64,000 nt of DNA, taken from contig NZ_HG916855.1 in the NCBI RefSeq assembly GCF_000577275.2, positions 806,001 through 870,000 on the forward strand. The letters are read 5' to 3'. Made by a program: the position numbers and the translations under genes. This stretch comes from Rhizobium favelukesii (GTDB lineage: Bacteria > Pseudomonadota > Alphaproteobacteria > Rhizobiales > Rhizobiaceae). Shown piece after piece: positions 8,992 to 38,112 of this stretch. How positions within the stretch are numbered: the stretch's first letter is position 1; every line of letters begins with the position of its first letter. Below the pieces are notes generated by a model. It saw only the letters and a program-made list of their open reading frames with translations, did not search any database and had not been told where the DNA came from.

Positions 8992-9894
8992 CTAGCGGAC
9001 GGCCTGCTTAAACTTCGCCGGCGTCAAGCCGGTAGCACGTCGAAATGCGCGCGCAAAGCTCGATTGCGACGAGTATTGACAATCAAAGGCAATCTCGCTG
9101 AGTGACATTTGTCCTATCGCGAGGAGTTTTTTTGCTCGCTCCAGCCGACGCCTACTCACATAGCTATGCGGTGGCGTCCCGACACTGGCCGCAAATGCGC
9201 GCGTAAAATGGAACACGCTCAGACACGCTATGCTCGCCAGATCGCTCACTGTAATTTCCTCGGTGAGATGCTCTTCAATGTAGGCAAGAACACGCCGCAA
9301 TCTGACGTTATCAAGTCCAAGTCTCGGCTGGCGTTCTAAACGACGCAACGAACTTTCTGAGTGCTCATGAAGGAGTCGGGCTGCCAGAAAGAGCGACGCA
9401 GTCTCGATCAGCATAGGTCCAGACGTCGTTGGATCCGACATTTCGCGTAGGATCGACAAAGCAATCTGGTTGATAAGGCTGTCGTGCACACCGGAAACAT
9501 AGCGGATAGACTGTCCGGGGGTTCGAGGCACGCTGAAGTCTGTCGCCAAGCGGATGAAAGCGGAGGATGGAAGATAAAGGTGAGCGACTTGCAGTTCTTC
9601 CGATGCGATGTGAATTGCGTCGGCTTTGGCAGCCATGGGATTGAGCCAGATCGTACCGTCGGAAGGCCGAACACGCCGCTGCTCTCCTCCGACCTTGCAG
9701 GTCACGAGTCCTGCATCTGAGCCACTGACTATGACTGCTATTTCCAGATCCTGTCCTTCTGCACCCGGTCCTTCACAGCTGGAGTGAGATCGGAGCTCTG
9801 CAAAGAGCGTCGACCATCCCAAATCGTCCGAAGACCTGAGTAGCCGGGAGGCCGGGTATTTTCTGTAACCCTGTGAATGCAGTTGGTCCAACAT
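8992..9894 (-). CDS. AraC-family transcriptional regulator
   Basis: The 300-residue protein has a divergent N-terminal sensing domain and a canonical C-terminal double helix-turn-helix at about residues 195-298: ILTVSDLASIACLSVFHFTRAFA-like first helix pair and the family signature SEIAFDCQYSSQSSFARAFRRATGLTPAKFK. AraC proteins bind direct repeats near promoters and usually respond to a small organic ligand. It lies 285 bases downstream of, and co-oriented with, an exported esterase gene; the inverted repeats in that gap may be its sites. The ATG at 9894 gives the longest frame and fits the family length. Confidence 0.9.
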   Translation of the reverse strand: MLDQLHSQGYRKYPASRLLRSSDDLGWSTLFAELRSHSSCEGPGAEGQDLEIAVIVSGSDAGLVTCKVGGEQRRVRPSDGTIWLNPMAAKADAIHIASEELQVAHLYLPSSAFIRLATDFSVPRTPGQSIRYVSGVHDSLINQIALSILREMSDPTTSGPMLIETASLFLAARLLHEHSESSLRRLERQPRLGLDNVRLRRVLAYIEEHLTEEITVSDLASIACLSVFHFTRAFAASVGTPPHSYVSRRRLERAKKLLAIGQMSLSEIAFDCQYSSQSSFARAFRRATGLTPAKFKQAVR

Positions 9895-9945
9895 GTCAGC
9901 GCACCAGCAAGTATAGGCAATGGCCTGTCCGACGGTAATAACCTG

Positions 9946-10027
9946 GACGGTTTACCGTCGTCCATGACCAGCCACAACCTGCACCTCAGGATAGGAGAAT
10001 TTGGTCTAGTCCTTTGATAAAGACCAA
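9946..10027. promoter_or_regulatory. Two inverted repeats upstream of the AraC gene
   Basis: GACGGT-tt-ACCGTC lies at 9946-9959. A second pair, TTGGTCT (10001-10007) and AGACCAA (10021-10027), is separated by 13 bases. They fall in the 285-base gap between the esterase and the AraC gene and could be regulator sites or an mRNA hairpin. Only the symmetry is observed. Confidence 0.35.
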
Positions 10028-10179
10028 TCTCGGTGCCGTTATTCGTTGGATACACTCCTCAAGCGTTATTGCTTACGTGTGGCGACTTTTGGCTGCTCAG
10101 TTCATCTAGAAGACGCTGATAGCCACGAAATGCGGTTGACGCGGCGGTGCTATGCCCCGCCGAGTCAAGATCGGACCGC

Positions 10180-11223
10180 CTAGTTGTTGACCGGCCCGAG
10201 GTGCTGACGCAGACCATCGTTGATCTGCTTGATCGCCGCTTCTGTCGAGGGAACGTTGCGAAGTGCGTTGAGAAGCACGAAGTCATGGATCGTACCATTG
10301 TATCGAACCGCATCGACCTCGACGCCGGCGTCCTTGAGCTTTCGGGCGTAGGCTTCCCCTTCATCACGCAGCGGATCATTTTCTGCCGTGATCACGAGCG
10401 CGGGGGGCAGGCCCTTCAGCTCGTCCTTGCTTGCAAGAAGAGGCGAAACGTACGGATTGTTTCGAGTCTTCTCGTCCGGCGCATAGAGATCCCACCCGTA
10501 CTTCATAAATGCGCGGGCCAGGAAGCGACCTGTTCCGTACTCGTGATACGATTGCGTGTCCACGCTGGCGTCGGTTGCCGGAATGAGGAGGGCCTGGTAC
10601 GCGATCTTGGGCCCTTGGCGATCCTTGCTCATGAGAGAAAGCGCGGCGGTCATATTCCCGCCGACGGAGTTGCCGGCAACGGCGATGCGATTGCCGTCAG
10701 CACCAAACTCACCGGCGTGCTCGGCGACCCATTTCAGGCCCGCATAGCATTCCTCAAGCTGGGTCGGGAATTTCGCGGCCGGCAAGGGTGTGTACTCGAC
10801 GAAAACGCCAATTTGTCCCGAGCCTACGACGAGATCGCGGAGCAAACGCTGATGGTTCTCGAAATTCCCAACGATCCAAACGCCACCGTGAATGAAGAAC
10901 AGGACACCTGGCTTTCCGCTCAAGTGTTCGGGCTTCATGATGTACAGTTTCACTTGCCGCCCGTCCTGAGAGATGATCTTTTCTGTCGTCGTAACGCCGC
11001 TCATGTCGACGGGCGTCTTGGACTGCAGGCCCGTGAGGATATCCTGCGGCTTTGGTTGGGGCAGCTTCCAGAATGGGCTACTGTCCTTATTGATATCAGC
11101 CAGGAATGACCGAATCTCGGGATCGATCCGTGGATCGGTGTTGGCGTCGGCAGCCATTGCGATCGTTTGGGTCATGAGAGTTGCTCCTATCAGTACGTTT
11201 GCGAGTGTGCGGATGCGGCCCAT
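10180..11223 (-). CDS. Exported HSL-type esterase (alpha/beta hydrolase)
   Basis: The 347-residue protein starts with a signal peptide (cleavage about residues 22-25, AMAADA). It carries the HSL-family HGG oxyanion motif (residues 112-114), nucleophile Ser186, acid Asp283 in ENDPLRDEGE and His313 in IHDF. The nucleophile elbow is GNSVGG, not the usual GDSAGG. This Asp-to-Asn change is also seen in other members annotated as acetyl-hydrolases, and activity is likely retained because the full triad is there. It is probably secreted and acts on short acyl esters. It is co-oriented with the AraC gene downstream. Confidence 0.88.
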   Translation of the reverse strand: MGRIRTLANVLIGATLMTQTIAMAADANTDPRIDPEIRSFLADINKDSSPFWKLPQPKPQDILTGLQSKTPVDMSGVTTTEKIISQDGRQVKLYIMKPEHLSGKPGVLFFIHGGVWIVGNFENHQRLLRDLVVGSGQIGVFVEYTPLPAAKFPTQLEECYAGLKWVAEHAGEFGADGNRIAVAGNSVGGNMTAALSLMSKDRQGPKIAYQALLIPATDASVDTQSYHEYGTGRFLARAFMKYGWDLYAPDEKTRNNPYVSPLLASKDELKGLPPALVITAENDPLRDEGEAYARKLKDAGVEVDAVRYNGTIHDFVLLNALRNVPSTEAAIKQINDGLRQHLGPVNN

Positions 11224-11508
11224 GGAAATGCTCCGGATGGTGGGGTGGCGTCAGTTTTGCGGGGTCATTCTTAAGAGCTCAGCCGGAAGTCCTCTCTGCC
11301 GCGCCTGCTATTGTTTTGACTGATCTTGCGCTTTGCAGTGGCCTGTGATCGCCAGCGATATGCCGGCATTGCCGGGCCATGCTCCGGCAGAAGCCGTCAA
11401 CGACTGAACATGAGAGGAAGGAGAGTAAGCGCTAATTTCTGTGCGCCTTCTGTAGCGGAGTGCTGTGAGGCATGAAGCGTCCACCAAAAAATAGGTGGAC
11501 ACCAAATC

Positions 11509-11928
11509 ATGGATGAAGATGCTCCTAAACTGCAGGTACGGCTTGTTGGTCGCGACGGCCGCCGTCGATATGACCCTGCGTCGAGAGATCAGCTTGTCGC
11601 GGCGTGCTTAGAACCCGGCGTTTCGGTCTCGCGGCTGGCGCTGGAGCACGGCGTCAATGCGAATCTCGTCCGGAAGTGGATGAAGAAGTCCAGAGCGGAG
11701 CGTCAATTGCCTTTGGCCTCGGCGTTCGTTCCGGTTCAGATTGCTCCGGATATGCACTCGGGTTCTGCTGGCGATCTGAAGAAGACCAAGCCATTGAGCC
11801 AGTGCCTTCCCGCATCCAAGGTGAGCGCACTCCTGCCGAACGGGGTCAGCCTGACCGTCGAGTGCGCCGGTGTGGAAGTGCTGGAAGCAATCATAGGAGC
11901 GCTGGGTCATGTTCAGACTGGGCGGTGA
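11509..11928 (+). CDS. tnpA: IS66 TnpA
   Basis: The 139-residue protein has the IS66 Orf1 helix-turn-helix (RDQLVAACLEPGVSVSRLALEHGVNANLVRKWMKK, about residues 24-60) and a C-terminal LLPNGVSLTVECAGVEVLEAI strand typical of the family. It is a DNA-binding accessory protein for transposition. The end overlaps tnpB by 20 bases, the usual IS66 coupling. Confidence 0.95.
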   Translation: MDEDAPKLQVRLVGRDGRRRYDPASRDQLVAACLEPGVSVSRLALEHGVNANLVRKWMKKSRAERQLPLASAFVPVQIAPDMHSGSAGDLKKTKPLSQCLPASKVSALLPNGVSLTVECAGVEVLEAIIGALGHVQTGR

Positions 11929-12262
11929 TCTCAAGGTTTACCTGCATCGCGAACCGATCGACTTCCGCGCGGGCATCAACAGCCTGGCGGTCCTGGTCCA
12001 GGAGACGATGGCGCTGGATCCGTTTGCGCCTGCGGTTTTTGCCTTCTGCAATCGCCGGCGTGACCGAATGAAGCTGCTGTTTTTTGATCGTTCCGGTTTT
12101 GTGATGGTCCTGAAGCGGTTGACCGAGGACAGGTTCAGATGGCCCCGTTGCGAGGTGCCGGTGGTCATGCTGACGACAGAACAGCTTCACTGGATCCTCG
12201 ATGGCATCGATATCGACGCAATGGTGCGCCATCCGGTGCGGCAATATCAGATTGCCGGCTGA
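11909..12262 (+). CDS. tnpB: IS66 TnpB
   Basis: The 117-residue protein has the TnpB hallmarks: VYLHREPIDFRAGINSLAVLV, a FAFCNRRRDRMKLLFFDRSGF core, and VLKRLTEDRFRWPR. This accessory protein is conserved in IS66 elements and has no established enzymatic activity. It sits between tnpA (20-base overlap) and tnpC (54-base gap). Confidence 0.95.
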   Translation: MFRLGGDLKVYLHREPIDFRAGINSLAVLVQETMALDPFAPAVFAFCNRRRDRMKLLFFDRSGFVMVLKRLTEDRFRWPRCEVPVVMLTTEQLHWILDGIDIDAMVRHPVRQYQIAG

Positions 12263-12316
12263 CGGATGTCGAATTGAGCAGTTGACGCGGCTGGGCGGTT
12301 CAGATTCAAGAATCTG

Positions 12317-13906
12317 ATGACTCGCACCGGCGAACCGAGCATTGCAGAACTGATGGCGCAATTGGCAGCCAATGCTGCCGAAATCGCTGCGCTCAAAGCC
12401 GAGAAGGAAGCGCTCTCGCAGCGGGTCGTCAAGCTGGAAGAAGAGCTTGCACTGGCAAAACTCCATCGCTTTGCCCCCCGCAGTGAAAAGCACATTGATC
12501 GTCTCTTCAACGAGGCCGAAGAGGCTGCGGTCGAGGATGGCAGCGAAGCAGGCGATGTTGTCGAGCTTCCGGACACCGGCCTGCCAGCGGTAGAAGGTCA
12601 AACGGGAAAGAAGCGTGGACGCAGACCTCTGCCAGAAGACCTGCCACGCGAGCGCGTCGAATATGACCTCCCCGACGATCAGAAGTCTTGTCCCTGCTGC
12701 CAGGGTCAGATGCATCGCATGGGCGAGGCTGTTACCGAGCAGCTCCATATCGAGGTCAAGGCAAAGGTCCTACAGAATGTGCGGTTCAAGTACGCTTGCC
12801 GCCATTGCGACCGCACCGGGATCAACACACCCGTCGTGATCGCACCGATGCCGACGCAGCCCCTGCCGGGCAGCATCGCTACCGCCTCGACGTTAGCCTT
12901 CGCGCTCGTCCACAAATACGTCGACGGCACACCGCTTTACCGCGTGGCTCAGACATTCGAGCGTGCTGGTGTTCCGATCAGCCGCGGCGCTCTCGCTCAC
13001 TGGGTCATCGGCTCAAGCGAGAAGCATCTGCACCGCATCTATGATGCGCTGAAACTGCGGTTGCGATCGCAGCCTCTCATTCATGGCGATGAGACGACGG
13101 TTCAAGTCCTCAAGGAAAAGGACAAGGAGGCCACCAGCACATCGTACATGTGGGCCTATCGCAGCGGCGAGGACAGTGACCAGCCAATCGTACTGCTCGA
13201 TTATCAGCCCGGGCGCGGCCAGATCCACCCGCAGACCTTCCTTGGTGACTACCGCGGCATATTGGTGAGCGATGGCTACACAGCCTGGCGCACATTGCAT
13301 GGCGCAACCCATGTCGGATGCATGGCTCACTCCAGGCGGCGCTTCGTCGAAGCCCTCAAGGCAAGAAAGAATGGCGGCGGCCCGCCGGAGCAAGCGCTCA
13401 GGTTCTTCGAGCAGCTCTACCGGATCGAGAGGCAGGCGCGAGAGATAAAGCCCGACGCCGGTGAAACGCAGGCCGCCTGCATTCGCCGCTTCCGGCAACA
13501 GCACAGTTTGCCTGTCCTGAACGCCCTCAAGACGTGGCTCGATAACATCGCGCCGAAGGTCGTGCCGGATACCAAGCTCGGCGATGCTGTGTCCTACACC
13601 CTGAACCAATGGGATTATCTGACGCGCTACACCAGCGACGGCAGGATGCCGATCGATAACAACATCCTGGAACGCGACATCAGGGTTTTTGCGACCGGAA
13701 GAAAATCGTGGCTGTTCAGCGACACTGCTGACGGAGCCAAGGCCAGTGCTGTGATTTACAGTCTGATGCTGACATGCCGCGCCTGTGGCGTCGACCCTCT
13801 GATCTGGCTGCGCCACGTACTCACCGAGTTGCCACAGCGCGAAGAGAATGCCGACATCGGCGACCTGCTCCCGTTCAACTTCTCCAAGACCTCCACGACC
13901 GAATAG
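12317..13906 (+). CDS. tnpC: IS66 transposase TnpC
   Basis: The 529-residue DDE transposase begins with a coiled-coil/leucine-zipper region (about residues 10-55, AALKAEKEALSQRVVKLEEEL). A zinc-finger-like segment follows (CPCCQGQMHRMGE and CRHCDRTGI). The catalytic core has acidic residues in IHGDETTVQV, LVSDGYTAW and NNILERDIR. It is full length with no disabling change, so this copy can probably transpose. Confidence 0.95.
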   Translation: MTRTGEPSIAELMAQLAANAAEIAALKAEKEALSQRVVKLEEELALAKLHRFAPRSEKHIDRLFNEAEEAAVEDGSEAGDVVELPDTGLPAVEGQTGKKRGRRPLPEDLPRERVEYDLPDDQKSCPCCQGQMHRMGEAVTEQLHIEVKAKVLQNVRFKYACRHCDRTGINTPVVIAPMPTQPLPGSIATASTLAFALVHKYVDGTPLYRVAQTFERAGVPISRGALAHWVIGSSEKHLHRIYDALKLRLRSQPLIHGDETTVQVLKEKDKEATSTSYMWAYRSGEDSDQPIVLLDYQPGRGQIHPQTFLGDYRGILVSDGYTAWRTLHGATHVGCMAHSRRRFVEALKARKNGGGPPEQALRFFEQLYRIERQAREIKPDAGETQAACIRRFRQQHSLPVLNALKTWLDNIAPKVVPDTKLGDAVSYTLNQWDYLTRYTSDGRMPIDNNILERDIRVFATGRKSWLFSDTADGAKASAVIYSLMLTCRACGVDPLIWLRHVLTELPQREENADIGDLLPFNFSKTSTTE

Positions 13907-13982
13907 AGCCGGATACCGCGACCGATGCTATCCGCCGTTCGGTGTGGAACAGGCGTCAATACGCATCGAAAATCGCGCTTAC

Positions 13983-14296
13983 GAACGGGCGCACCGTTCA
14001 GCGCCAATGCGTTCTACGCGACTGACTGTGTCGAAATATCCGGAACGTCGACGGAATTCATTCGCACCGCCGATAGCGGTCGCAAGGTTCACATGCATTT
14101 TTGCCCGACCTGCGGTTCGACCGTCTATTGGAAGGCCGATGCCGCGCCGTCCTGGATCGGTGTGGGGGTCGGTTCATTTGCCGACCCGGCCTATTCGCCG
14201 CCTGCCATGTCTGTCTTCGAGCAATCGAAACATCCGTGGGTACAGCTTGACGACACGGTTGAGCATTTCGAAGGTCTTCCAGCCCGCCTGGATTAA
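13983..14296 (+). pseudogene. GFA-family protein, N-terminus lost to IS66
   Basis: Directly after the IS66 end the forward frame reads RTGAPFSANAFYATDCVEI, then HFCPTCGSTVYWKAD, then ends at 14296. This is the C-terminal two thirds of a glutathione-dependent formaldehyde-activating (GFA, Mss4-like) zinc-fold protein: the CPTCGS pair of zinc ligands is kept, while the N-terminal CLCG and CHCxxCQ pairs are absent. The missing part is not found left of the IS66 element, so the insertion was followed by a deletion or rearrangement. It is certainly non-functional unless expressed from the IS. Confidence 0.85.
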
Positions 14297-14829: not shown

Positions 14830-15095
14830 CCTCTTTGCGCGGGCATCACCACAGCCGATGATCTCACCTCAGCGACGAGGGGGTCCGCATTGGGCCCTGA
14901 TTGGCCACGCGTAACGGCAGCTTTGCGCCCCCAAGCCGTTGGGGTACGCCTTGCCGTTGCCCGAAAGTAGACATCGTCGGCGAACACGCTGTAGGTCGCA
15001 GACGCGCCAGAGAACTTGATCTCAGCCGAGATCGCTGCGGGCATAAGTTCCCATGTCTCGGTCTTCCTGCTATCGTGGCGATGAGGAACGGCTCT

Positions 15096-16868
15096 ATGAG
15101 CGAGAACCGCAAGCTGGCCGCAATTCTGGCCGCGGACGTAGTCGGATATAGCCGGCTCGCCAGCGAGGACGAAGATCGCACCCTGGCAAGGTTGCGGGCA
15201 CTGCGCAGCGACCTGATCGACCCAACCATCGCCGTGCACAACGGCCGTGTCATCAAGCGTACCGGAGACGGAGCGCTGGTCGAATTCCGCAGCGTTGTCG
15301 ATGCCGTGCGCTGCGCCATCGAGGTGCAGAACGGAATGGTCGAGCGCAATGCCGGCGTTCAGCACGATCGGCGCATCGAGTTCCGGATCGGCATCCATCT
15401 GGGGGACGTAGTAGAGGAAAGCGATGGCGACCTGATGGGCGACGGCGTCAACATCGCCTCGCGTATCGAGGGTGTCGCGGCCCCCGGCGCCATTTGCCTG
15501 TCCGAGGACGCCTATCGCCAGGTCAGGGCGAGGCTCGATCTCTCCGTCAGCGATCTCGGCAACACGCAGCTCAAGAACATCGCCGAGCCGATCCGGATTT
15601 ATTCGCTCCAGGTCGGCGCCGCCGCGCAGGCAAAACCACTAGTGACCGCAGGCGCCGTTGCTCGTGCGCCGGCCGCATTGCCGCCGGGGCTCTCGATTGC
15701 CGTGCTGCCCTTCGCCAACATGAGCGGCGATGCCGAGCAGGAGTACTTCGCCGACGGCATCTCCGAAGATATCATCACTGCGCTGTCGAAGCTGTCGCAG
15801 TTGTTTGTCATCGCACGCAACTCGTCGTTTACCTTCAAGGGCCGGAACGTGAACGTGCAGGAGGTGGGCCACAGCCTCAACGTGCGCTACGTGCTGGAAG
15901 GAAGCGTCCGCAAATCAGGCAACAAGGTGAGGATCACCGCGCAGCTCATCGATGCGACCACTGGCGGGCATCAGTGGGCTGAGCGTTTCGATCGCGACCT
16001 AAGCGACATCTTCGCGGTGCAGGATGACGTCACGCAGCAGATCGTCGGCGCTCTGGAACTCAAGCTCACGACCGGGGACCAGCAGCGGCTTGCGGCCGAG
16101 CAGACCCAAAATCTGGAAGCCTATGACTGTTTCCTACGGGGCCGTGAACACATGTGGCGGCTGACGAGAGAGCAGAACATTCAGGGCCAGCAATTGTTGC
16201 AACGCGCCATCGATCTGGACCCGAAATTCGCCCCGGCCCACGCCTTCCTCGCCGTCGCGCACGGGCTGGCCTACGTCAACCAGTGGAGCCAATCACCCTC
16301 GAAATCGCTGGAACAGGCGACCGGGTCTGCGACGCAGGCGGTGGCGCTCGATGATCGATATCCGTACGCACATTGGGCGCTGGGCGTCGTCAGCTTGTAC
16401 CTGCGACGGCTTGACGTAGCCATCCGGGAGGCTGAACGCGTGATCGCGCTTGCTCCCAATCTTGTCGAGGGCCACGAGAGCCTCGGCAACGCGCTCCACT
16501 ATGCGGGCAGGCCCGACGAGGCCCTCGTCTGTTTCGAGCGGGCAATGGCCCTGAATCCATATTATCCGGATATCTTTCTGCACTTCCACGCGCAGGCGAT
16601 GTTCCAGCTAGGCAGGTACGAGGAGGCCGTTGTCATCCTGAAGCGACGGCTTGTCCGCAATCCAGCCACCGACATCTCACGTGTGTTGCTGGCGGCGAGC
16701 TATGGTCACCTGGGCCGCTTCGCGGAGGCGCGCGGGCAGTGGGAGGAAGCGTTCCGGATCAATCCCGATTATTCCCTGGAGCACAGGCGCAAAGTGCTGC
16801 CCTACAAGAACCCTGCCGATTTCGAGCGCATTGTGGACGGCCTGCGCAAAGCTGGCCTCACTGAGTGA
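15096..16868 (+). CDS. Class III adenylate cyclase with TPR domain
   Basis: The 590-residue cytoplasmic protein starts at 15096 behind GAGGAA. An N-terminal class III cyclase domain has metal residues Asp14 (ADVVGYSR) and Asp58 (TGDG), adenine-type specificity residues Lys54 and Asp112, and transition-state residues Asn119 and Arg123 (GVNIASRIE). A TolB/FlgO-like segment follows at about residues 185-310 (VLPFANMSGDAEQEYFADG), then several TPR repeats to the C-terminus. This architecture is multiplied in rhizobial genomes. It should make cAMP from ATP; the input signal is unknown. It stands alone in its transcription unit. Confidence 0.92.
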   Translation: MSENRKLAAILAADVVGYSRLASEDEDRTLARLRALRSDLIDPTIAVHNGRVIKRTGDGALVEFRSVVDAVRCAIEVQNGMVERNAGVQHDRRIEFRIGIHLGDVVEESDGDLMGDGVNIASRIEGVAAPGAICLSEDAYRQVRARLDLSVSDLGNTQLKNIAEPIRIYSLQVGAAAQAKPLVTAGAVARAPAALPPGLSIAVLPFANMSGDAEQEYFADGISEDIITALSKLSQLFVIARNSSFTFKGRNVNVQEVGHSLNVRYVLEGSVRKSGNKVRITAQLIDATTGGHQWAERFDRDLSDIFAVQDDVTQQIVGALELKLTTGDQQRLAAEQTQNLEAYDCFLRGREHMWRLTREQNIQGQQLLQRAIDLDPKFAPAHAFLAVAHGLAYVNQWSQSPSKSLEQATGSATQAVALDDRYPYAHWALGVVSLYLRRLDVAIREAERVIALAPNLVEGHESLGNALHYAGRPDEALVCFERAMALNPYYPDIFLHFHAQAMFQLGRYEEAVVILKRRLVRNPATDISRVLLAASYGHLGRFAEARGQWEEAFRINPDYSLEHRRKVLPYKNPADFERIVDGLRKAGLTE

Positions 16869-19510: not shown

Positions 19511-20557
19511 TCAACGCAGTTCCTGGCATTCGATCAGTTCGATCCGACCCTTGCCCTTGATTTCTACGAAGCCCAGGGAGCGCCCGCGACCCCGCTCGCG
19601 AATGCGATGCCACGTGGCCCCGCTGATCGCTACAGTCCCAGGGCTAGCATGGGCTGCGATCCGGGAGGCCACATTTACCGTGTCGCCCCACAGGTCGAAC
19701 ACGAATTGCCGCTGCCCGATGATTCCCGCCACAACTGGACCGAAATGAACGCCGACTCGCACCTCCCATTTGGGCTCGATGCAACGTGATGCTGTCACCA
19801 TGTCGAGTCCGCATTGCAAGCTGGCAAAAACCGGATCTGGCATGCGATCAAACAGGCCGGCCGTAGCCATAAAGGCGTCGCCGATAGTCTTGATCTTCTC
19901 CATCCCATGCTGACGGACGATTCGTTCGTATTCGCCGATCAGCGCCTGAAGATCCTCCACCACTTTCTCCGGCGGATTCTCATCGCAATAAGCTGTGAAG
20001 CCAACGATATCGCAGAATAGCACCGCGACTTCATTGTAGCGGCGGGGCCGGACCTCATTGGTCGCTTTGAGCTCGCGCACCGCGCCGGCGGGTAGGATGG
20101 CGTACAGAAGCTCGTCCGCTCGGCGCTTTTCGGTTTCGATTTGCTGCGTGTATACCACCTCTTGGTCGCGCAGCCTCTTCTTTTCCAGGCACGCGGCCAC
20201 GCGGGCGCGCAGCAGAACCGCGTTGAACGGTTTGGCCAGATAATCCTCGGCGCCGAGGCTGATGCAGCGCGCCACACTGTCGATCTCATCGACCGCCGAT
20301 ATCATGACAACCGGAATGTTGCGCAGCGTTGTGTCGGCCTTCAGCTCCTCGAGCACCTGGTAGCCGTCCATTTCCGGCATCGTAATGTCGAGCAGCACGA
20401 GATCGAACGATCTCGTTGCCAGCATTTCGAGCGCCTCCCGTCCATTGCTGGCGCATGCCACGTTTCTATAGCCTTCTCGCTTCAACCGCTCAGTCAGCGT
20501 AAAGCGATTGTCCTCGTTATCGTCGACGACGAGCAGGGCGGGTGCAACCTCGCTCAT
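19511..20557 (-). CDS. Response regulator with adenylate cyclase output
   Basis: The 348-residue protein joins a receiver domain (residues 8-125: acidic pocket Asp12/Asp13, phospho-acceptor Asp57 in LVLLDITMPEMDG, Lys109 in LAKPF), a helical linker (about 126-172), and a class III cyclase domain (about 173-348). Catalytic residues are complete: metal Asp183 (FCDIVGFT) and Asp227 (TIGDAF), adenine-specific Lys223 and Asp288 (FDLWGD), Asn295 and Arg299. So it should produce cAMP under phosphorylation control. Its start overlaps the preceding receiver gene by ATGA, and it is last in the kinase cassette. Confidence 0.92.
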   Translation of the reverse strand: MSEVAPALLVVDDNEDNRFTLTERLKREGYRNVACASNGREALEMLATRSFDLVLLDITMPEMDGYQVLEELKADTTLRNIPVVMISAVDEIDSVARCISLGAEDYLAKPFNAVLLRARVAACLEKKRLRDQEVVYTQQIETEKRRADELLYAILPAGAVRELKATNEVRPRRYNEVAVLFCDIVGFTAYCDENPPEKVVEDLQALIGEYERIVRQHGMEKIKTIGDAFMATAGLFDRMPDPVFASLQCGLDMVTASRCIEPKWEVRVGVHFGPVVAGIIGQRQFVFDLWGDTVNVASRIAAHASPGTVAISGATWHRIRERGRGRSLGFVEIKGKGRIELIECQELR

Positions 20558-20931
20558 GACATCGACCCCTTTGGAAGTTGGGCCTTGATCTTTCCAAGCA
20601 GACGCGTGAAATCGACGGGCTTGGTATCGAAGTCATCGCACCCGGCTGCCAGTGCTGCTTCGCGGTCGCCAGCCATCGCGTGCGACGAGAGCGCGATCAC
20701 GGGAATATCCCGCGTCTCAGGCAATGTCTTGAGACGTCTTGTCGCCTCCCAGCCGTCGAGGACGGGAAGGCTTAAGTCCATCAGGATCAGCGCAGGCGCG
20801 TCCGATCGCGCACGCGCCACGCCCTGATCGCCATCGGTGGCGACGATCACCTCGTAGCCTTTGCGTCTTAGCCGCGCGGACAGCATGTAGATGTTGTCCT
20901 CATTGTCTTCGACATAGAGGATCCTAACCAT
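20554..20931 (-). CDS. Single-domain response regulator
   Basis: The 125-residue stand-alone receiver (CheY/DivK type) starts at [13 protein letters not shown]. Phospho-acceptor Asp52 lies in [13 protein letters not shown]; the acidic pair Glu8/Asp9 and a Lys in DTKPVDF complete the site. A longer upstream frame exists, but it only reads through the end of the kinase gene. It overlaps that gene by 8 bases and the receiver-cyclase gene by 4, so all three are translationally coupled. It probably shuttles phosphate from the hybrid kinase, possibly as a phosphate sink or relay. Confidence 0.93.
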
Positions 20932-23900
20932 CACGACGATCCTTGTCAGGCGAGTTTCGTTTGGGAATGTATCTTGCAACCATCTTGCGCAATTCCTCCA
21001 GAAGCTCGTTGCGGCTGAAGGCGGTCTTGGCGAGCACGCGCTCGACGCCACCGTTCAGGCGCCGGTGGTCATCCTCGCTGAGGGTTGCCGCCGTCACAAC
21101 CACGACCGGCATCGCCTTAAAGGCGGGTTGCTTGCGCAGTTCGATGAGAAACTCGAAGCCGTCCATTTCCGGCATAAGGAGGTCGAGGATGATGAGGTCT
21201 GGAGGCGCGCTGATGAGTCGTTCCAGCGCGACCCGGCCATTCTCGGCCTCGTCCACGTCGCAACCCTCTGTGCTCAATATGCGACGCCATTGCTGGCGCG
21301 TGCTCTCATCATCCTCGACGATCAGAACACGAAGCGCTGGACCAGGAGCACCGGACCAGAATTTCCTGATCAGTTTCCGGAGCGCGTCGCGCTCGATCGG
21401 CTTAACCATGTAATCGGCGGCACCGAGCGCGTACCCCCGGTTCCTCTCATCGGCCATGGTGAGCATCACGACAGGGACATTCGCGAGCTCAGGATCCGCC
21501 TTCAGTTCCTGCAGGACGCTCCAGCCGTCGCAGTCCGGCATCAGCACGTCAAGCGTGATGAGCGCTGGCTTCACCTGCCGGGCCAGTTTAAGCCCTTCCG
21601 CACCGTCCTTGGCGGTCACTACATCGCAACCCTCGCGGGCGAGAAACCGGCGCATCTGGTCCCGTACCGCCTCATCGTCATCAACGACGAGGACCACGTT
21701 CGAGACGGGGCGAACGCGATCATCAGCGGCGACCCCGGCGCCAGGGGCCGGCTGCTCCAGCGTGGGGCCCACGTCGATTGCCGACGGCAGCCGCACCGTG
21801 AACCTGGTGCCGGCGCCAGGAGTGCTGTCCACAGTGATCTCGCCATCCATCGCGCGGCACAGGCGTTGGCTGATGGCAAGCCCTAGCCCGGTGCCGCCGT
21901 ACTTGCGGGTGGTGGAACTATCGGCCTGACTAAACTCCTGGAACAGGTTCGTCATCTGCTGCGGCGTCATGCCAATGCCGGTATCGGCGACGGTAAATAT
22001 CACGCCATCGCCTCCATCATGCTTTGCGCAGGTCGCCCCAATCGTCACTTGGCCGTTCTCCGTGAACTTGCAGGCATTGCTCAACAGGTTGAGGAGGATC
22101 TGGCGCACCCGAAGCTGATCGGCGCGCATGCTGCCAATGTCATCCGGGCATCGGATGATGATCCGGTTGCGGTTTTTCTGTGCAAGTGGCTGCGCGGTTG
22201 TCGCGGCATCTTGAACCATGCCTGCGATATCGAACTCCTCGATATGCAATTCCAGGCGGCCGGCCTCGATCTTGGAAAGATCGAGGACCTCATTAATGAG
22301 CTTGAGCAGATGCTTGCCGGCGCGCGCCACCCGCTGAAGCGGTTCGATCAGTTCGCCTTGGCCAGCTTCGCTGGCATCTTCCTGCAGCATTTCGGTAATG
22401 CCCAGGATAGCGTTCAGCGGCGTGCGCAACTCGTGGCTCATGCTGGCAAGGAACTTGCTCTTGGCCTGTGTCGCCGCCATGGCCGCGTCGCGGGCGATCT
22501 CGAGCTCGGTTTCATGCCTCTTTAGCTTGCTGATATCGGTGTAGACAGCGACGATGCCGCCGCCAGTAATGCGCCGCTCATTGACCTGAATCCAGCGGTC
22601 CTGGCTGCGAAGTTGAACCAGCGTCAGCTTAGGATTGCGATGTGCCGCAAGCCGTGCGGCGAGCCATTCCTCCTCTTTGCCTTTCGCATCTTCGACGAGG
22701 CCCTTTTCCACTGCCCTCCGGACAATCGTCTCAAATTGTGCACCAGGCACGACGGCATCGGCGACGCCGGGATAGAGGATTTCCCTATATCGGCTGTTGC
22801 ATAGAACAAGCCGGTCCTCGGCATCATAAAGGGCGAAGCCCTCGGAGATGCTCTCGATTGCATCGACGAGTCGCTGGCGCGCTTCGGCAACCTCGCGCAG
22901 GTTTTTTTCCTCGACCTCGACCGCAGTGTCACGGAACAGCAGAAGCGCCTTGGCCATGCGGCCGATCTCGTCGCGGCCCGTGGCAGGCAGTGGTGCTCGA
23001 AGATTGCCGCCGGCGATGGCAAGCATGCTTTGGCTCAGCCCCGACAAGCGGGCAAGAAGATTGCGGTCGACATACAACCAGACGATCAGAACTGAACTCA
23101 GGAGGCTCAGAACGGCCGAGCCAAGAACAACTCCGGTACCGTAGCGCTGGACGGTCGCAGCTTCACGACCAGCCTCGGTGATGTCACGGTTAGCCGCAGC
23201 TACGAGGCGATCCACGGCAACGGTTAAATTACGCGAGAGCTGAGCGTTCTCGACCAAAAGTTTTCCGCCCTTTGCGAGTAATGCGAGCTCATCCTCACGC
23301 GCCTGTGCAATGCTCTTCGGACCGTCGATCAACCCCTCGAACTCGTCAACACGCTGGCGGAATCGCGTCCGCAGCTTCTCATCCATCTCGGGCATCACCG
23401 CCGCAAGGGAGTCGACCGAGCGGCGCAGCGGAAAGGACATCAGTGCCAGGTCGCCGGGCGTCGGCGCAACCGCCGTCTTGAGCAGCGCGTCGTTGATCGC
23501 CGAAATCTCCCGTTGTGCCTTCTGTTGCGGGATGTAGGAGGCGATTGCCTGCGCAAGGTCTGTCGTAGCCGCCGCGCGTGCTTCGGGTGGTAGGGCGGCA
23601 TCCGCCACGGCTGCACGCCACTGGGGGACCTTGGAGTTCATCACGAGGATGCCAGGCGCCACAAGACGCTGGCTTGCGTTTGTCGTAGCCGACAAGCGGC
23701 GCAGCAGCTCCTCTTTGCGCGCAACCACGGTGAGGCGAGCGGCGACAAGATTGTCGAGAGTGTTGAGGTTGCGCCGCAGACCGATCACCGCGGCTTCGAT
23801 CTCAGCCACCGCCGCCGTGCTGACCGCGGTGCCTTTGAGCGCGGCAAGCAACTCTTCGAGGCGCGACATCTCCACCCCGATCGCAGCCGAGACCTGGTTG

Positions 23901-24139
23901 TGCTGAACCGTGCTGGTCGTAGCAAGTACGGCCGGCGCAGTGGCGGCGACCCGCTCCGCTTGGCGGGGGAGCTCGAGCGATGCAAGCGCGGACGGGACCC
24001 GGCGCTCCGTGATCCGCTCGACGACCTCGCCCACTTGGAGGAACGCATACACGGCCGCGGCAGTTGCGAGCACCGCGAAGGTGCTGATACCAAAGAAAGC
24101 GAAGAGTAAGCGGCCACGTATTCCGAGACGTTCAAACAT
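20924..24139 (-). CDS. Hybrid sensor histidine kinase with two receivers
   Basis: The 1,071-residue protein has a transmembrane helix at about 11-31, a long helical periplasmic region (32-335), a second helix at 336-356, HAMP (about 357-410), and a PAS-like domain (about 425-540). Next are HisKA with the phospho-site His569 ([12 protein letters not shown]) and an HATPase with its N box (NLLSNACKF) and GTGLGL G box. Two receivers follow, with acceptors Asp864 (ITLDVLMPD) and Asp986 (IILDLLMPE). All catalytic features are intact. The helical periplasmic sensor is of the four-helix type that often binds a partner protein. The neighbour upstream, 87 bases away, encodes a LivJ-like binding protein that could be that partner. 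Confidence 0.94.
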
Positions 24140-24226
24140 CGCGGCGACCCATCGATCCGGCTGATGTGGTCAACATGGCCCGCACAGCTTTTTTCTCGAA
24201 CGCGATCCGCAGTGATCAGCGTTGTG

Positions 24227-25324
24227 TTATTCCAACAGCACGTATTCGCCGCCCTTCCAGATATACCATACCCAGCTCTGAACAGTGAGGTCGCCTTTGT
24301 CGTCAAAGTCGATACGGCCCAGTACAGTATCAAATGAATGGGCGCGTAATGAAGCAATCACCTCGCGCAGCTTCAGCGAGCCGGCTTTCGTGACCGCCTG
24401 CGCCCAGGCTTGAACGGCGCTGTAGCTCAGCAGCGTGTAGCCTGCAGGTTCGAAGTTTTCTGCACGGAACCGCTCCACGACTGGGGCCGCTTCGGGGTTT
24501 CGCCGTGCGTCCGCGGAGAACGTGAAGAGGGTTCCCTCAGCGGCTGGACCGGCGATCAGGGCAAATTCCTCGGTCGCCAGAGCATCGCCAGAGACGAACT
24601 GAACCGCGTAGCCTTGGTCGTGTGCAGCGCGAACCATCAGCGCAACCTCAGCATGATAACCGCCGACATATACCACGGTGACCTTCGCAGCCTTTAGTGC
24701 AGCGATTTCAGCCGAATAGTCGTTCTTCGCAGGGGTGTACGCCTGGTAGATCGCTTCGGTCACACCTCGCTTGTTCAACTGCTTTCGGGTCTCATCGGCA
24801 AGGCCCCTACCATAGGTGGTGCCATCGTGAAGGATCGCAATCTTCTTGTCGACCCAATAATCGGCCAGGTAGTTGCCGGCCACGACGCCCTGCGCATCAT
24901 CACGACCAATGACGCGGAACACGTTGGCACGGCCTTGTTCGGTCAGCAGCGGGTTGGTCGACCCTGGTGAAATCTGCAGAACTCCCGCCGCCTCATACAC
25001 CTTTGATGCCGGGATCGAGGCTCCAGAGCAGTAGTGACCGACGACGAGCACTACACCGTCAGCCACGAGTTTTTTGGCGACGGCCACCGCTTGCTCTGGA
25101 TCGCAGAAGTCGTCGACCGCGATGAGCCGCACCTGCTGGCCTAGAACGCCGCCCGCCGCATTGATATCGGCCACGGCCATCTCTGCGCCACGCTGCCCCT
25201 GTTCCCCGATCCACGCGAGCCGTCCGGTCATCGCGGCTGAAACGCCGATCAGCACCTCAGCGTGCGCGGAATAGCTGACCAAGGCTGCAAGTGCGAGAAT
25301 AGCGACGGCGACGATGCGGTGCAT
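24227..25324 (-). CDS. LivJ-type periplasmic ligand-binding protein
   Basis: The 365-residue exported protein has a signal peptide (MHRIVAVAILALAAL...AHA, cleavage near residue 23) and the type I periplasmic-binding fold of branched-chain amino acid/amide ABC receptors: GVSAAMTGRLAWIGEQG, INAAGGVLGQQV, GVVLVVGHYCSGA. I start it at 25324 behind AAGG rather than at an upstream codon. No ABC permease or ATPase is nearby. It instead precedes a hybrid kinase, a receiver and a receiver-cyclase on the same strand, so a role as a co-sensor for the kinase is plausible. The ligand is unknown, likely an amino acid, amide or aromatic acid. Confidence 0.9.
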   Translation of the reverse strand: MHRIVAVAILALAALVSYSAHAEVLIGVSAAMTGRLAWIGEQGQRGAEMAVADINAAGGVLGQQVRLIAVDDFCDPEQAVAVAKKLVADGVVLVVGHYCSGASIPASKVYEAAGVLQISPGSTNPLLTEQGRANVFRVIGRDDAQGVVAGNYLADYWVDKKIAILHDGTTYGRGLADETRKQLNKRGVTEAIYQAYTPAKNDYSAEIAALKAAKVTVVYVGGYHAEVALMVRAAHDQGYAVQFVSGDALATEEFALIAGPAAEGTLFTFSADARRNPEAAPVVERFRAENFEPAGYTLLSYSAVQAWAQAVTKAGSLKLREVIASLRAHSFDTVLGRIDFDDKGDLTVQSWVWYIWKGGEYVLLE

Positions 25325-25440
25325 GAAACAGCCTTCCGCCTTGATACCGGATTTTTTTGCACGAGAGCGGTACCGCAACTGCGCCAGCGGGGCGCGCCGT
25401 CATGATGTGGCAATCGCGACCCGCCGTGATCAGCAATCTG

Positions 25441-25540
25441 CTATTCCAGCGGCGCCCAATCGCCATCCCTCAAAATATACCATGCGGCGCTGAGGAGTGA
25501 TATGGCCTTGGTGTCGATGGCGCTGAGCAGGGCACGTTCA
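25441..25540 (-). pseudogene. 3' remnant of a second LivJ-like gene
   Basis: The reverse frame ends in SLLSAAWYILRDGDWAPLE and a stop. This aligns with the end of the intact binding protein (TVQSWVWYIWKGGEYVLLE, stop), and the bases just after both stops are also alike (GTGATCAGC). Only about 30 codons are left; upstream sequence is unrelated and leads to the 264-bp repeat. A tandem paralogue once preceded the intact gene and was cut away. Confidence 0.65.
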
Positions 25541-35358: not shown

Positions 35359-35441
35359 TTAAGCCGTAAGCGCGATTTTCGATGCGTATTGACGCCTGTT
35401 CCACACCGAACGGCGGATAGCATCGGTCGCGGTATCCGGCT

Positions 35442-37031
35442 CTATTCGGTCGTGGAGGTCTTGGAGAAGTTGAACGGGAGCAGGTCGCCGATGTCGGCAT
35501 TCTCTTCGCGCTGTGGCAACTCGGTGAGTACGTGGCGCAGCCAGATCAGAGGGTCGACGCCACAGGCGCGGCATGTCAGCATCAGACTGTAAATCACAGC
35601 ACTGGCCTTGGCTCCGTCAGCAGTGTCGCTGAACAGCCACGATTTTCTTCCGGTCGCAAAAACCCTGATGTCGCGTTCCAGGATGTTGTTATCGATCGGC
35701 ATCCTGCCGTCGCTGGTGTAGCGCGTCAGATAATCCCATTGGTTCAGGGTGTAGGACACAGCATCGCCGAGCTTGGTATCCGGCACGACCTTCGGCGCGA
35801 TGTTATCGAGCCACGTCTTGAGGGCGTTCAGGACAGGCAAACTGTGCTGTTGCCGGAAGCGGCGAATGCAGGCGGCCTGCGTTTCACCGGCGTCGGGCTT
35901 TATCTCTCGCGCCTGCCTCTCGATCCGGTAGAGCTGCTCGAAGAACCTGAGCGCTTGCTCCGGCGGGCCGCCGCCATTCTTTCTTGCCTTGAGGGCTTCG
36001 ACGAAGCGCCGCCTGGAGTGAGCCATGCATCCGACATGGGTTGCGCCATGCAATGTGCGCCAGGCTGTGTAGCCATCGCTCACCAATATGCCGCGGTAGT
36101 CACCAAGGAAGGTCTGCGGGTGGATCTGGCCGCGCCCGGGCTGATAATCGAGCAGTACGATTGGCTGGTCACTGTCTTCGCCGCTGCGATAGGCCCACAT
36201 GTACGATGTGCTGGTGGCCTCCTTGTCCTTTTCCTTGAGGACTTGAACCGTCGTCTCATCGCCATGAATGAGAGGCTGCGATCGCAACCGCAGTTTCAGC
36301 GCATCATAGATGCGGTGCAGATGCTTCTCGCTTGAGCCGATGACCCAGTGAGCGAGAGCGCCGCGGCTGATCGGAACACCAGCACGCTCGAATGTCTGAG
36401 CCACGCGGTAAAGCGGTGTGCCGTCGACGTATTTGTGGACGAGCGCGAAGGCTAACGTCGAGGCGGTAGCGATGCTGCCCGGCAGGGGCTGCGTCGGCAT
36501 CGGTGCGATCACGACGGGTATGTTGATCCCGGTGCGGTCGCAATGGCGGCAAGCGTACTTGAACCGCACATTCTGTAGGACCTTTGCCTTGACCTCGATA
36601 TGGAGCTGCTCGGTAACAGCCTCGCCCATGCGATGCATCTGACCCTGGCAGCAGGGACAAGACTTCTGATCGTCGGGGAGGTCATATTCGACGCGCTCGC
36701 GTGGCAGGTCTTCTGGCAGAGGTCTGCGTCCACGCTTCTTTCCCGTTTGACCTTCTACCGCTGGCAGGCCGGTGTCCGGAAGCTCGACAACATCGCCTGC
36801 TTCGCTGCCATCCTCGACCGCAGCCTCTTCGGCCTCGTTGAAGAGACGATCAATGTGCTTTTCACTGCGGGGGGCAAAGCGATGGAGTTTTGCCAGTGCA
36901 AGCTCTTCTTCCAGCTTGACGACCCGCTGCGAGAGCGCTTCCTTCTCGGCTTTGAGCGCAGCGATTTCGGCAGCATTGGCTGCCAATTGCGCCATCAGTT
37001 CTGCAATGCTCGGTTCGCCGGTGCGAGTCAT
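35442..37031 (-). CDS. tnpC: IS66 transposase TnpC, copy 2
   Basis: The 529-residue protein is identical to the copy 1 transposase except for one Thr-to-Ile change in the segment after the zinc-finger-like cysteines (GINIPVVIAP). The acidic catalytic residues in HGDETTVQV, SDGYTAW and ILERDIR are unchanged, so it should be active. Low divergence between copies indicates recent transposition within this genome. Confidence 0.95.
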   Translation of the reverse strand: MTRTGEPSIAELMAQLAANAAEIAALKAEKEALSQRVVKLEEELALAKLHRFAPRSEKHIDRLFNEAEEAAVEDGSEAGDVVELPDTGLPAVEGQTGKKRGRRPLPEDLPRERVEYDLPDDQKSCPCCQGQMHRMGEAVTEQLHIEVKAKVLQNVRFKYACRHCDRTGINIPVVIAPMPTQPLPGSIATASTLAFALVHKYVDGTPLYRVAQTFERAGVPISRGALAHWVIGSSEKHLHRIYDALKLRLRSQPLIHGDETTVQVLKEKDKEATSTSYMWAYRSGEDSDQPIVLLDYQPGRGQIHPQTFLGDYRGILVSDGYTAWRTLHGATHVGCMAHSRRRFVEALKARKNGGGPPEQALRFFEQLYRIERQAREIKPDAGETQAACIRRFRQQHSLPVLNALKTWLDNIAPKVVPDTKLGDAVSYTLNQWDYLTRYTSDGRMPIDNNILERDIRVFATGRKSWLFSDTADGAKASAVIYSLMLTCRACGVDPLIWLRHVLTELPQREENADIGDLLPFNFSKTSTTE

Positions 37032-37085
37032 CAGATTCTTGAATCTGAACCGCCCAGCCGCGTCAACTGCTCAATTCGACATCCG

Positions 37086-37439
37086 TCAGCCGGCAATCTG
37101 ATATTGCCGCACCGGATGGCGCACCATTGCGTCGATATCGATGCCATCGAGGATCCAGTGAAGCTGTTCTGTCGTCAGCATGACCACCGGCACCTCGCAA
37201 CGGGGCCATCTGAACCTGTCCTCGGTCAACCGCTTCAGGACCATCACAAAACCGGAACGATCAAAAAACAGCAGCTTCATTCGGTCACGCCGGCGATTGC
37301 AGAAGGCAAAAACCGCAGGCGCAAACGGATCCAGCGCCATCGTCTCCTGGACCAGGACCGCCAGGCTGTTGATGCCCGCGCGGAAGTCGATCGGTTCGCG
37401 ATGCAGGTAAACCTTGAGATCACCGCCCAGTCTGAACAT
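37086..37439 (-). CDS. tnpB: IS66 TnpB, copy 2
   Basis: The 117-residue TnpB is identical in sequence to the one in copy 1 (REPIDFRAGINSLAV, FAFCNRRRDRMKLLFF). It overlaps the end of tnpA by 20 bases and precedes tnpC by 54 bases. Confidence 0.95.
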   Translation of the reverse strand: MFRLGGDLKVYLHREPIDFRAGINSLAVLVQETMALDPFAPAVFAFCNRRRDRMKLLFFDRSGFVMVLKRLTEDRFRWPRCEVPVVMLTTEQLHWILDGIDIDAMVRHPVRQYQIAG

Positions 37440-37839
37440 GACCCAGCGCTCCTATGATTGCTTCCAGCACTTCCACACCGGCGCACTCGACGGTCAGGCT
37501 GACCCCGTTCGGCAGGAGTGCGCTCACCTTGGATGCGGGAAGGCACTGGCTCAATGGCTTGGTCTTCTTCAGATCGCCAGCAGAACCCGAGTGCATATCC
37601 GGAGCAATCTGAACCGGAACGAACGCCGAGGCCAAAGGCAATTGACGCTCCGCTCTGGACTTCTTCATCCACTTCCGGACGAGATTCGCATTGACGCCGT
37701 GCTCCAGCGCCAGCCGCGAGACCGAAACGCCGGGTTCTAAGCACGCCGCGACAAGCTGATCTCTCGACGCAGGGTCATATCGACGGCGGCCGTCGCGACC
37801 AACAAGCCGTACCTGCAGTTTAGGAGCATCTTCATCCAT
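37420..37839 (-). CDS. tnpA: IS66 TnpA, copy 2
   Basis: The 139-residue helix-turn-helix protein is identical to copy 1 (ALEHGVNANLVRKWMKKSRAE). It is the first gene of the element on the reverse strand, with its start about 85 bases inside the right-hand terminal repeat. Confidence 0.95.
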   Translation of the reverse strand: MDEDAPKLQVRLVGRDGRRRYDPASRDQLVAACLEPGVSVSRLALEHGVNANLVRKWMKKSRAERQLPLASAFVPVQIAPDMHSGSAGDLKKTKPLSQCLPASKVSALLPNGVSLTVECAGVEVLEAIIGALGHVQTGR

Positions 37840-38112
37840 GATTTGGTGTCCACCTATTTTTTGGTGGACGCTTCATGCCTCACAGCACTCCGCTACAGAA
37901 GGCGCACAGAAATTAGCGCTTACATTAAGCCTGCAAGCCGGGTTGTTTCAAGCATGACCGCTCTTGGGCCCGAAGCTGCCCTTTATGGAGACGCCTCAGC
38001 AGGTCAGGTTAGGTGGAGAGCGGCCGTTCGGCCACGGGCTGCGATGCGCCAAAAGGAGACGCTATGCGGCTCGAAGTAGGTCGCAATCATCAATGACGCG
38101 TTTCGCCCGACC

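Follow-up and report, generated by a model that had tools for sequence, protein, structure and literature searches.

We analyzed a 64,000-nucleotide (nt) stretch of a 7.57-Mb Rhizobium assembly (R. favelukesii, GCF_000577275.2, contig NZ_HG916855.1, positions 806,001 to 870,000; hereafter termed the window), in which four genes on the minus strand (19511..25324) form a cassette predicted to connect an exported binding protein to the synthesis of cyclic AMP (cAMP). The order reported in an initial annotation, namely, substrate-binding protein (SBP), kinase, receiver, and receiver-cyclase, with an 87-nt gap after the SBP gene and overlaps of 8 and 4 nt between the genes that follow, was reproduced in our analysis. 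More specifically, the SBP gene (24227..25324) encodes an exported, LivJ-like protein of 365 amino acids (aa) with a hydrophobic, signal-like N terminus. The 1071-aa hybrid sensor kinase (20924..24139), delineated from its open reading frame and Pfam domains, comprises a periplasmic sensor region (residues ~30 to 336; 23132..24052), HAMP (359 to 404) and PAS_7 (428 to 543) domains placed by Pfam and alignment (22511..23065), HisKA and HATPase_c domains with the phospho-acceptor His569 (21782..22465; Pfam and residue position), and two C-terminal receivers carrying Asp864 and Asp986 (21023..21694; Pfam, the second being delimited by reference to the R. mongolense copy). The remaining genes encode a single-domain receiver of 125 aa (Asp52; 20554..20931) and a 348-aa receiver-adenylate cyclase (19511..20557), in which a REC domain (residues 9 to 120, Asp57) precedes a class IIIa-type cyclase domain (residues 171 to 340). 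The following Pfam domains of the four proteins all scored above cut-off (Peripla_BP_6 in the SBP; HAMP, PAS_7, HisKA, HATPase_c, and two Response_reg in the kinase; Response_reg in the receiver; Response_reg and Guanylate_cyc in the receiver-cyclase).

Alignment of the receiver-cyclase confirmed the presence of Lys223 and Asp288, which the initial annotation had singled out, as well as of Asp183, Asp227, Asn295, and Arg299. We take Lys223 and Asp288 to be the adenine-specifying residues and Asp183 and Asp227 to be the metal residues of class III cyclases, and the Lys + Asp pair places this domain in class IIIa. The protein combines a REC domain containing the phospho-acceptor Asp with a class III cyclase domain containing the metal and adenine residues, and is thus a predicted adenylate cyclase with complete catalytic residues. 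Guanylate_cyc matches number 36 in the whole genome; a single bacterium can encode a large number of class III cyclases, and most of these respond to signals that are not known.

The receiver-cyclase was found at 93 to 100% identity in 9 of 148 Rhizobium genomes (window included; 17 genomes had some match at E 1e-30), among them R. sullae and R. mongolense, and the next matches dropped to 47%. The four-gene order was complete in all nine of these loci. (Loci are cited by our own L numbers; R. sullae L015 was taken as the same record as L148, and R. mongolense L016 as L145, each being counted once.) A search with the sensor matched 21 of 394 genomes of the family; the window's own aside, the 12 best were taken and the 8 weakest (E 2.3e-7 to 7.6e-6) left out. 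This search revealed the full order in two genomes of other genera (L153 and L154). With the order complete in 11 loci, the possibility that the homologues are always separate from each other, which the initial annotation had named as fatal to its proposal, did not materialize. In the other 10 loci with a kinase, 86 to 88 nt separate the SBP and receptor genes. All five segments compared are under purifying selection, with ratios of nonsynonymous to synonymous substitution (dN/dS) of 0.09 to 0.28 in 5 of the 10 other loci (the L152 receiver in part only); for the receiver-cyclase, which among the four genes is the most identical to the window in 7 of the 8 other Rhizobium loci, the ratio is 0.09 to 0.14 (five loci).

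Because long DNA identity to the window is confined to ~19.4 to 25.6 kb, and the 11 loci fall in six genomic contexts (flanks compared over ~3 to 5 kb per side), the block moves as one unit. A stretch of at least ~0.2 kb that precedes the SBP gene (25325..25509) travels with the cassette in 8 of the 10 other loci, reaching 25602 in four of them, and probably holds the cassette's own promoter. The region is flanked by two IS66-type copies of 2559 nt that are 100% identical and inverted relative to each other (window 11425-13983 and 35365-37923). We rejected a composite transposon carrying the cassette; separate insertion of the two copies is likelier, because an 8-bp target repeat of its own accompanies the right copy, and the left copy lacks a matching one.

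The SBP scored 183.9 bits with Peripla_BP_6 (cut-off 31.7), also matched ANF_receptor, and aligned over nearly its full length with 3ip5 (E 2e-104), its best match in the PDB and closest solved relative, which we take to be an Agrobacterium amino-acid binding protein with GABA (gamma-aminobutyric acid) and proline as ligands. It keeps Ser100, Thr123, Tyr171, and Asp247, which we assign to the LivJ-type ligand pocket, and this Ser/Thr/Tyr/Asp set is kept in 23 of the 24 SBP rows from the loci examined (paralogue rows L011 and L012, in wrong reading frames, were left out); only the second tandem copy in L161 departs from it. Because these pocket residues are kept and 3ip5 is the closest solved relative, we infer that the ligand is an amino acid or a GABA-like small zwitterion. 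Like LivJ/LivK and the 3ip5 protein in sequence over nearly the full length and in its pocket residues, the window SBP differs from them in being paired with a receptor and in having no permease genes nearby. Indeed, the genome contains 52 matches to the permease family PF02653, the nearest on the window's contig lying ~298 kb away, in agreement with the earlier remark that the other parts of an ATP-binding cassette (ABC) transporter are absent here. Likewise, none of the 60 neighborhoods examined contained a LivH/LivM-like permease, so that a LivJ gene tied to ABC genes elsewhere, the second outcome that would have undermined the initial proposal, did not appear; an ABC ATPase match occurred somewhere in 9 of the 60. 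The closest paralogue of the SBP (49%), unlike the cassette SBP, adjoins permease and ATPase-like genes. A Liv-type ABC transporter was therefore rejected for the cassette: the SBP belongs to Peripla_BP_6, but permeases are lacking nearby.

Hydropathy analysis indicated two membrane segments in the kinase that bracket a long periplasmic part. When a 20-row profile of this sensor and its relatives was compared with the PDB, the top three matches were the TorS structures 3i9w, 3i9y, and 3o1h (E 3.8e-6 to 7.2e-6), with alignments spanning most of the sensor domain, and the periplasmic domain of the kinase thus appears to be distantly TorS-like. The kinase is not TorS proper, because its scores with the curated models fall short of both cut-offs (404.6 bits with TIGR02956, cut-off 676.5; 23.0 bits for the sensor with PF21689, cut-off 27). 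The TorT-TorS-TorR system, which senses trimethylamine N-oxide, resembles the window in having both a periplasmic binding protein and a hybrid kinase with a long, all-helical, distantly related sensor. TorS carries a C-terminal HPt, and TorR is an OmpR-type regulator. In contrast, the window kinase has PAS_7 and two receivers and no HPt (no Hpt domain at E 0.01 with Pfam), the output is a receiver-cyclase instead of an OmpR-type regulator, and the SBP is of the Peripla_BP_6 family (TorT belongs to a different one). According to two reports, the TorS sensor consists of two stacked four-helix bundles (PMC8534201), and TorT docks on this sensor in a solved complex (PMC6321045).

Eight further loci of the family (L155-L162) contain an SBP gene followed, after 73 to 84 nt, by a gene for one ~820-aa protein in which sensor, HAMP, and PAS_7 lead into a cyclase that replaces the kinase (as checked with Pfam on L155, which has a cyclase and no receiver domain). 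Relative to the window, identities are 69 to 82% for the SBP (L162, 70%) and 61 to 77% for the sensor (L162 pieces, 57 to 61%). When L155, L157, L159, and L160 are compared with the window kinase in bins of 25 residues, identity is 48 to 96% in each bin as far as residue 550 and 16 to 28% thereafter; L161 shows the same drop, save for two low sensor bins (20 and 32%). Identity to the receptor cyclases thus stops just past PAS_7, near residue 550. The remainder resembles a cassette from Sneathiella (L017), which matches the window in kinase core (63%), first and second receivers (52% each), single receiver (70%), and receiver-cyclase (61%). Conversely, the window sensor had no match in L017 at E 1e-3, and the L017 HAMP and PAS_7 are 40 and 43% identical to those of the window kinase, compared with 85 and 70% (and 77% for the sensor) in L155. 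We conclude from these comparisons that the window kinase is a chimera, with a head like that of the receptor cyclases and with its tail and both response regulators like those of the Sneathiella cassette.

The L017 cassette begins with a Tll0287-like exported protein, not an SBP, and a second cassette of this Tll0287 type is present in the window's own genome (C62, ~623.4 to 628.8 kb; L301 4418-9814), its cyclase protein having a HisKA-like domain ahead of the receiver (HisKA-REC-cyclase) and being ~44% identical to that of the window. Both share with the window the tail and the order (exported protein first, then PAS_7 hybrid kinase, receiver, and receiver-cyclase); both differ in the exported protein and in a different, shorter periplasmic part. 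This second cassette, the fused receptor cyclases, and the relationship to TorS had all been missed in the initial annotation.

The fused cyclases are 25 to 29% identical to the window cyclase (seven of the eight, which gave a match). Two metal Asp residues, Lys, and Thr are present in 11 of 11 fused cyclases aligned (L155-L162, L224, L225, and L236; L224 is cut by a contig end, and L223 was not included), and we take the Lys + Thr pair to denote class IIIb. Given this low identity and the difference between Lys/Asp and Lys/Thr, the two cyclases are not orthologous, the cyclase output having been retained across a change of wiring. The 70% identity of the single receiver between the window-type and Sneathiella cassettes would also suit a scheme in which this DivK-like protein is the main output, acting on a transcription or cell-cycle pathway, with the receiver-cyclase as a side branch or a source of low cAMP. 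We consider such a scheme improbable: the receiver-cyclase has complete catalytic residues, its sequence is the best conserved of the four genes in most Rhizobium loci at the low dN/dS given above, and the cis relatives contain a cyclase without any receiver domain. Directly observed here are the order of the genes, their domains, the homologies, the chimeric kinase, and purifying selection; the cassette is real and conserved and, by comparison, forms a coherent unit of signaling.

Wider profile searches with the sensor matched 25 of 397 genomes of the order, 41 of 385 of the class, and 29 of 398 of the phylum, and 44 neighborhoods were taken; the phylum search added only 6 genomes outside the class (best E 2e-26). 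We defined a strong-sensor set of 32 loci, i.e., the window and 31 loci with at least 120 bits by profile A1 (L298, L299, and L300, at 45 to 116 bits, fall outside it). An SBP gene adjoins the sensor gene in all 30 loci that could be judged, L164 and L226 being left out because their contigs end upstream; it lies upstream on the same strand in 26, divergently in 3 (L163, L220, and L229), and downstream in 1 (L228). Four SBP families occur in this set (Peripla_BP_6, DctP, SBP_bac_3, and NMT1; assigned by Pfam for the window and 13 loci, and for the remainder by similarity to the window SBP). Chance adjacency is estimated at well under 1% per gene, because only 12 Peripla_BP_6 genes pass the cut-off genome-wide (13 stretches, two within one gene). 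SBP and sensor distances are correlated (r = 0.98 over 21 loci, uncorrected for shared ancestry). Among the weaker sensors L230-L259, a Peripla_BP_6 gene is adjacent in 8 of 30 loci (only that SBP family was looked for).

These counts bear on the possibility that the SBP is a spare scavenger subunit for a distant Liv-type permease, the kinase sensing otherwise (directly or via PAS_7) and the genes merely traveling together. The SBP does belong to a transporter family and keeps the LivJ-type pocket, and many permeases are encoded elsewhere in the genome. Furthermore, adjacency of SBP and kinase genes alone is not proof, because in Pseudomonas AgtS reportedly did not bind neighboring binding proteins by calorimetry and AruS bound none in a two-hybrid assay (PMC11113362). 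We nevertheless regard this explanation as unlikely, since the SBP adjoins the sensor in every judgeable locus across four SBP families, remains beside the head across an exchange of the output half, and lies near a LivH/LivM match in none of the 60 neighborhoods.

A cyclase is present in cis or in the same cassette in 24 of the 32 strong-sensor loci, and below 120 bits, L236 combines an SBP with a sensor-HAMP-cyclase. On a tree of 30 sensors, four changes between kinase and cyclase output are needed, three of which are forced by well-supported branches; the deep branches are long and uncertain (neither the tree nor the SBP-sensor correlation includes L162, whose frame is broken). In L226, a kinase of the same kind with an HPt precedes two receivers and a receiver-cyclase, which supports a flow of phosphate toward the receiver-cyclase.

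In the mechanism that we propose, the secreted LivJ-like SBP would bind its small zwitterion in the periplasm, and the ligand-dependent form of the SBP would dock on the kinase at its helical, TorS-like domain, as suggested by TorT and TorS. The HAMP and PAS_7 relay would then reset the kinase, and phosphate would pass from His569 to the receivers and on to Asp57 of the receiver-cyclase, either directly or via an HPt encoded elsewhere, so that phosphorylated Asp57 would raise or lower cAMP synthesis. The cassette may have originated by the joining of a receptor-cyclase sensing head to a kinase-receiver-receiver-cyclase tail with cAMP output kept. Transfer of phosphate from the kinase to the receiver-cyclase is presumed, and cAMP is probably the output of the cassette, because one head is served by two cyclases that are not orthologous, the first in cis and the second via phosphotransfer. 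Overall, we consider it rather probable that the cassette is a self-contained ligand-to-cAMP relay with this origin. In a variant of the same scheme with negative sign, the ligand-loaded SBP would hold the kinase in phosphatase mode, ligand would lower cAMP, and the single or kinase receivers would serve as phosphate sinks. We view this negative coupling as possible but rather doubtful: three extra receivers (two in the kinase and one separate) and the lack of an HPt would fit such a design, yet the cis receptor cyclases share the head and have no kinase or phosphatase, with inhibition by ligand still compatible.

Several further observations, together with the Pseudomonas results, weigh against the proposed relay from SBP to cAMP. 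Of the 32 strong-sensor loci, 8 have a cassette that encodes no cyclase (L163, L164, L220, L221, L222, L227, L229, and L297), L222 having a receiver-SpoIIE output instead, and the receiver-cyclase of L226 carries Gln in place of the adenine Lys, so that not every one need be an adenylate cyclase. An HPt is absent from the window cassette yet present in the related cassettes L164, L221, and L226. With regard to the sensor, its shortfall with PF21689 extends to relatives: among 14 sensors of this kind, 8 pass (L163, L227, L229, L234, L236, L257, L258, and L297), 3 stay below cut-off (window, L155, and L225), and 3 give no match (L164, which is cut short, L226, and L228). Moreover, composition bias was large in the PDB search with the sensor profile, and structure prediction from three sequences (window and two close loci) gave an all-helical model too poor to use (pLDDT 44, pTM 0.31). 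Apparent frame breaks affect one gene each in 2 of the 11 cassettes (the receiver in L152 and the receiver-cyclase in L153) and the sensor in 1 of the 8 fused loci (L162). Finally, the 11 cassettes and 8 fused loci are not independent cases, because many are close relatives. The route drawn in the initial annotation, i.e., SBP to kinase to receiver-cyclase to cAMP, has good comparative support from the conserved order, the TorS-like sensor, the chimera, and the cis-cyclase relatives, and as an interpretation is partly supported overall.

The accessible part of a 2022 survey of SBP-activated receptors lists chemoreceptors, sensor kinases, cyclic di-GMP enzymes, and Ser/Thr kinases, and adenylate cyclases do not appear in that list (PMC9602780). 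Likewise, our text searches of a limited, partly accessible open-access literature retrieved no SBP-driven bacterial adenylate cyclase. The description of the combination as unusual holds for the searchable literature, less so for alphaproteobacterial genomes. What is new is the probable cAMP output, SBP-activated receptors themselves being already known. In animals and trypanosomes, an outside periplasmic-binding-protein fold is thought to control an inside class III cyclase in Venus-flytrap receptor cyclases, such as the atrial natriuretic peptide receptor and the T. brucei receptor adenylate cyclases (PMC6027212). These share with the window a binding-protein fold outside the membrane and a class III cyclase inside; they differ in that their fold is fused to the receptor, whereas here it is a separate soluble protein that would act via a helical domain, and in the window the signal would additionally pass via a kinase. 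We give about an even chance to the broader proposal that binding-protein-gated cAMP receptors form a recurrent modular class in Alphaproteobacteria, in which one head (separate Venus-flytrap SBP and TorS-like domain) drives cAMP through a cis class IIIb cyclase or, where the output half has been exchanged, through a kinase coupled to a class IIIa receiver-cyclase, as a two-protein bacterial counterpart of the eukaryotic receptors. If this is true, adenylate cyclases would join the receptor types driven by binding proteins. That related bacteria fuse the same head to a different cyclase suggests that the system exists for the sake of its cAMP output. Because natural exchange has wired one head to cAMP in two ways, the system makes it possible to test cleanly whether the second messenger or the wiring is under selection. 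Standard binding screens with the soluble SBP can be used to look for the ligand, with cAMP as readout.

Other arrangements were noted around these sensors. L228 (1957-8498) contains on one strand a receiver, a GAF-containing kinase with this sensor (154 bits), a DctP-type binding protein, and a HisKA-REC-cyclase, and is another SBP-to-cyclase arrangement. At L227, an SBP and TorS-like kinase locus whose cassette has no response regulator, two cyclase-like genes lie on the opposite strand behind the SBP (9424-13071). Downstream of the TorS-like kinases of L164 (2936-4495), L221 (10613-11734), and L297 (2268-3794), a receiver is joined to an EamA-type transporter domain, an odd output type; this domain scores above cut-off in L164 and L297 and just below it in L221, HAMP is borderline in L221 and L297, and an HPt gene lies between kinase and receiver-EamA regulator in L164 and L221. 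Below 120 bits, L234, L257, and L258 have a Peripla_BP_6-type gene directly upstream of a chemoreceptor that combines a TorS-like sensor with an MCP domain. In L161 (8143-10455), two tandem SBP genes precede one receptor cyclase, the farther copy having changed pocket residues. Finally, the window contains a second cyclase gene (14901-16868, plus strand; class III cyclase with TPR repeats), situated downstream of the cassette at a distance of ~2.6 kb. The receptor-cyclase locus L157 likewise has a TPR-cyclase immediately downstream, and an 82% DNA match to the window gene occurs in L158.

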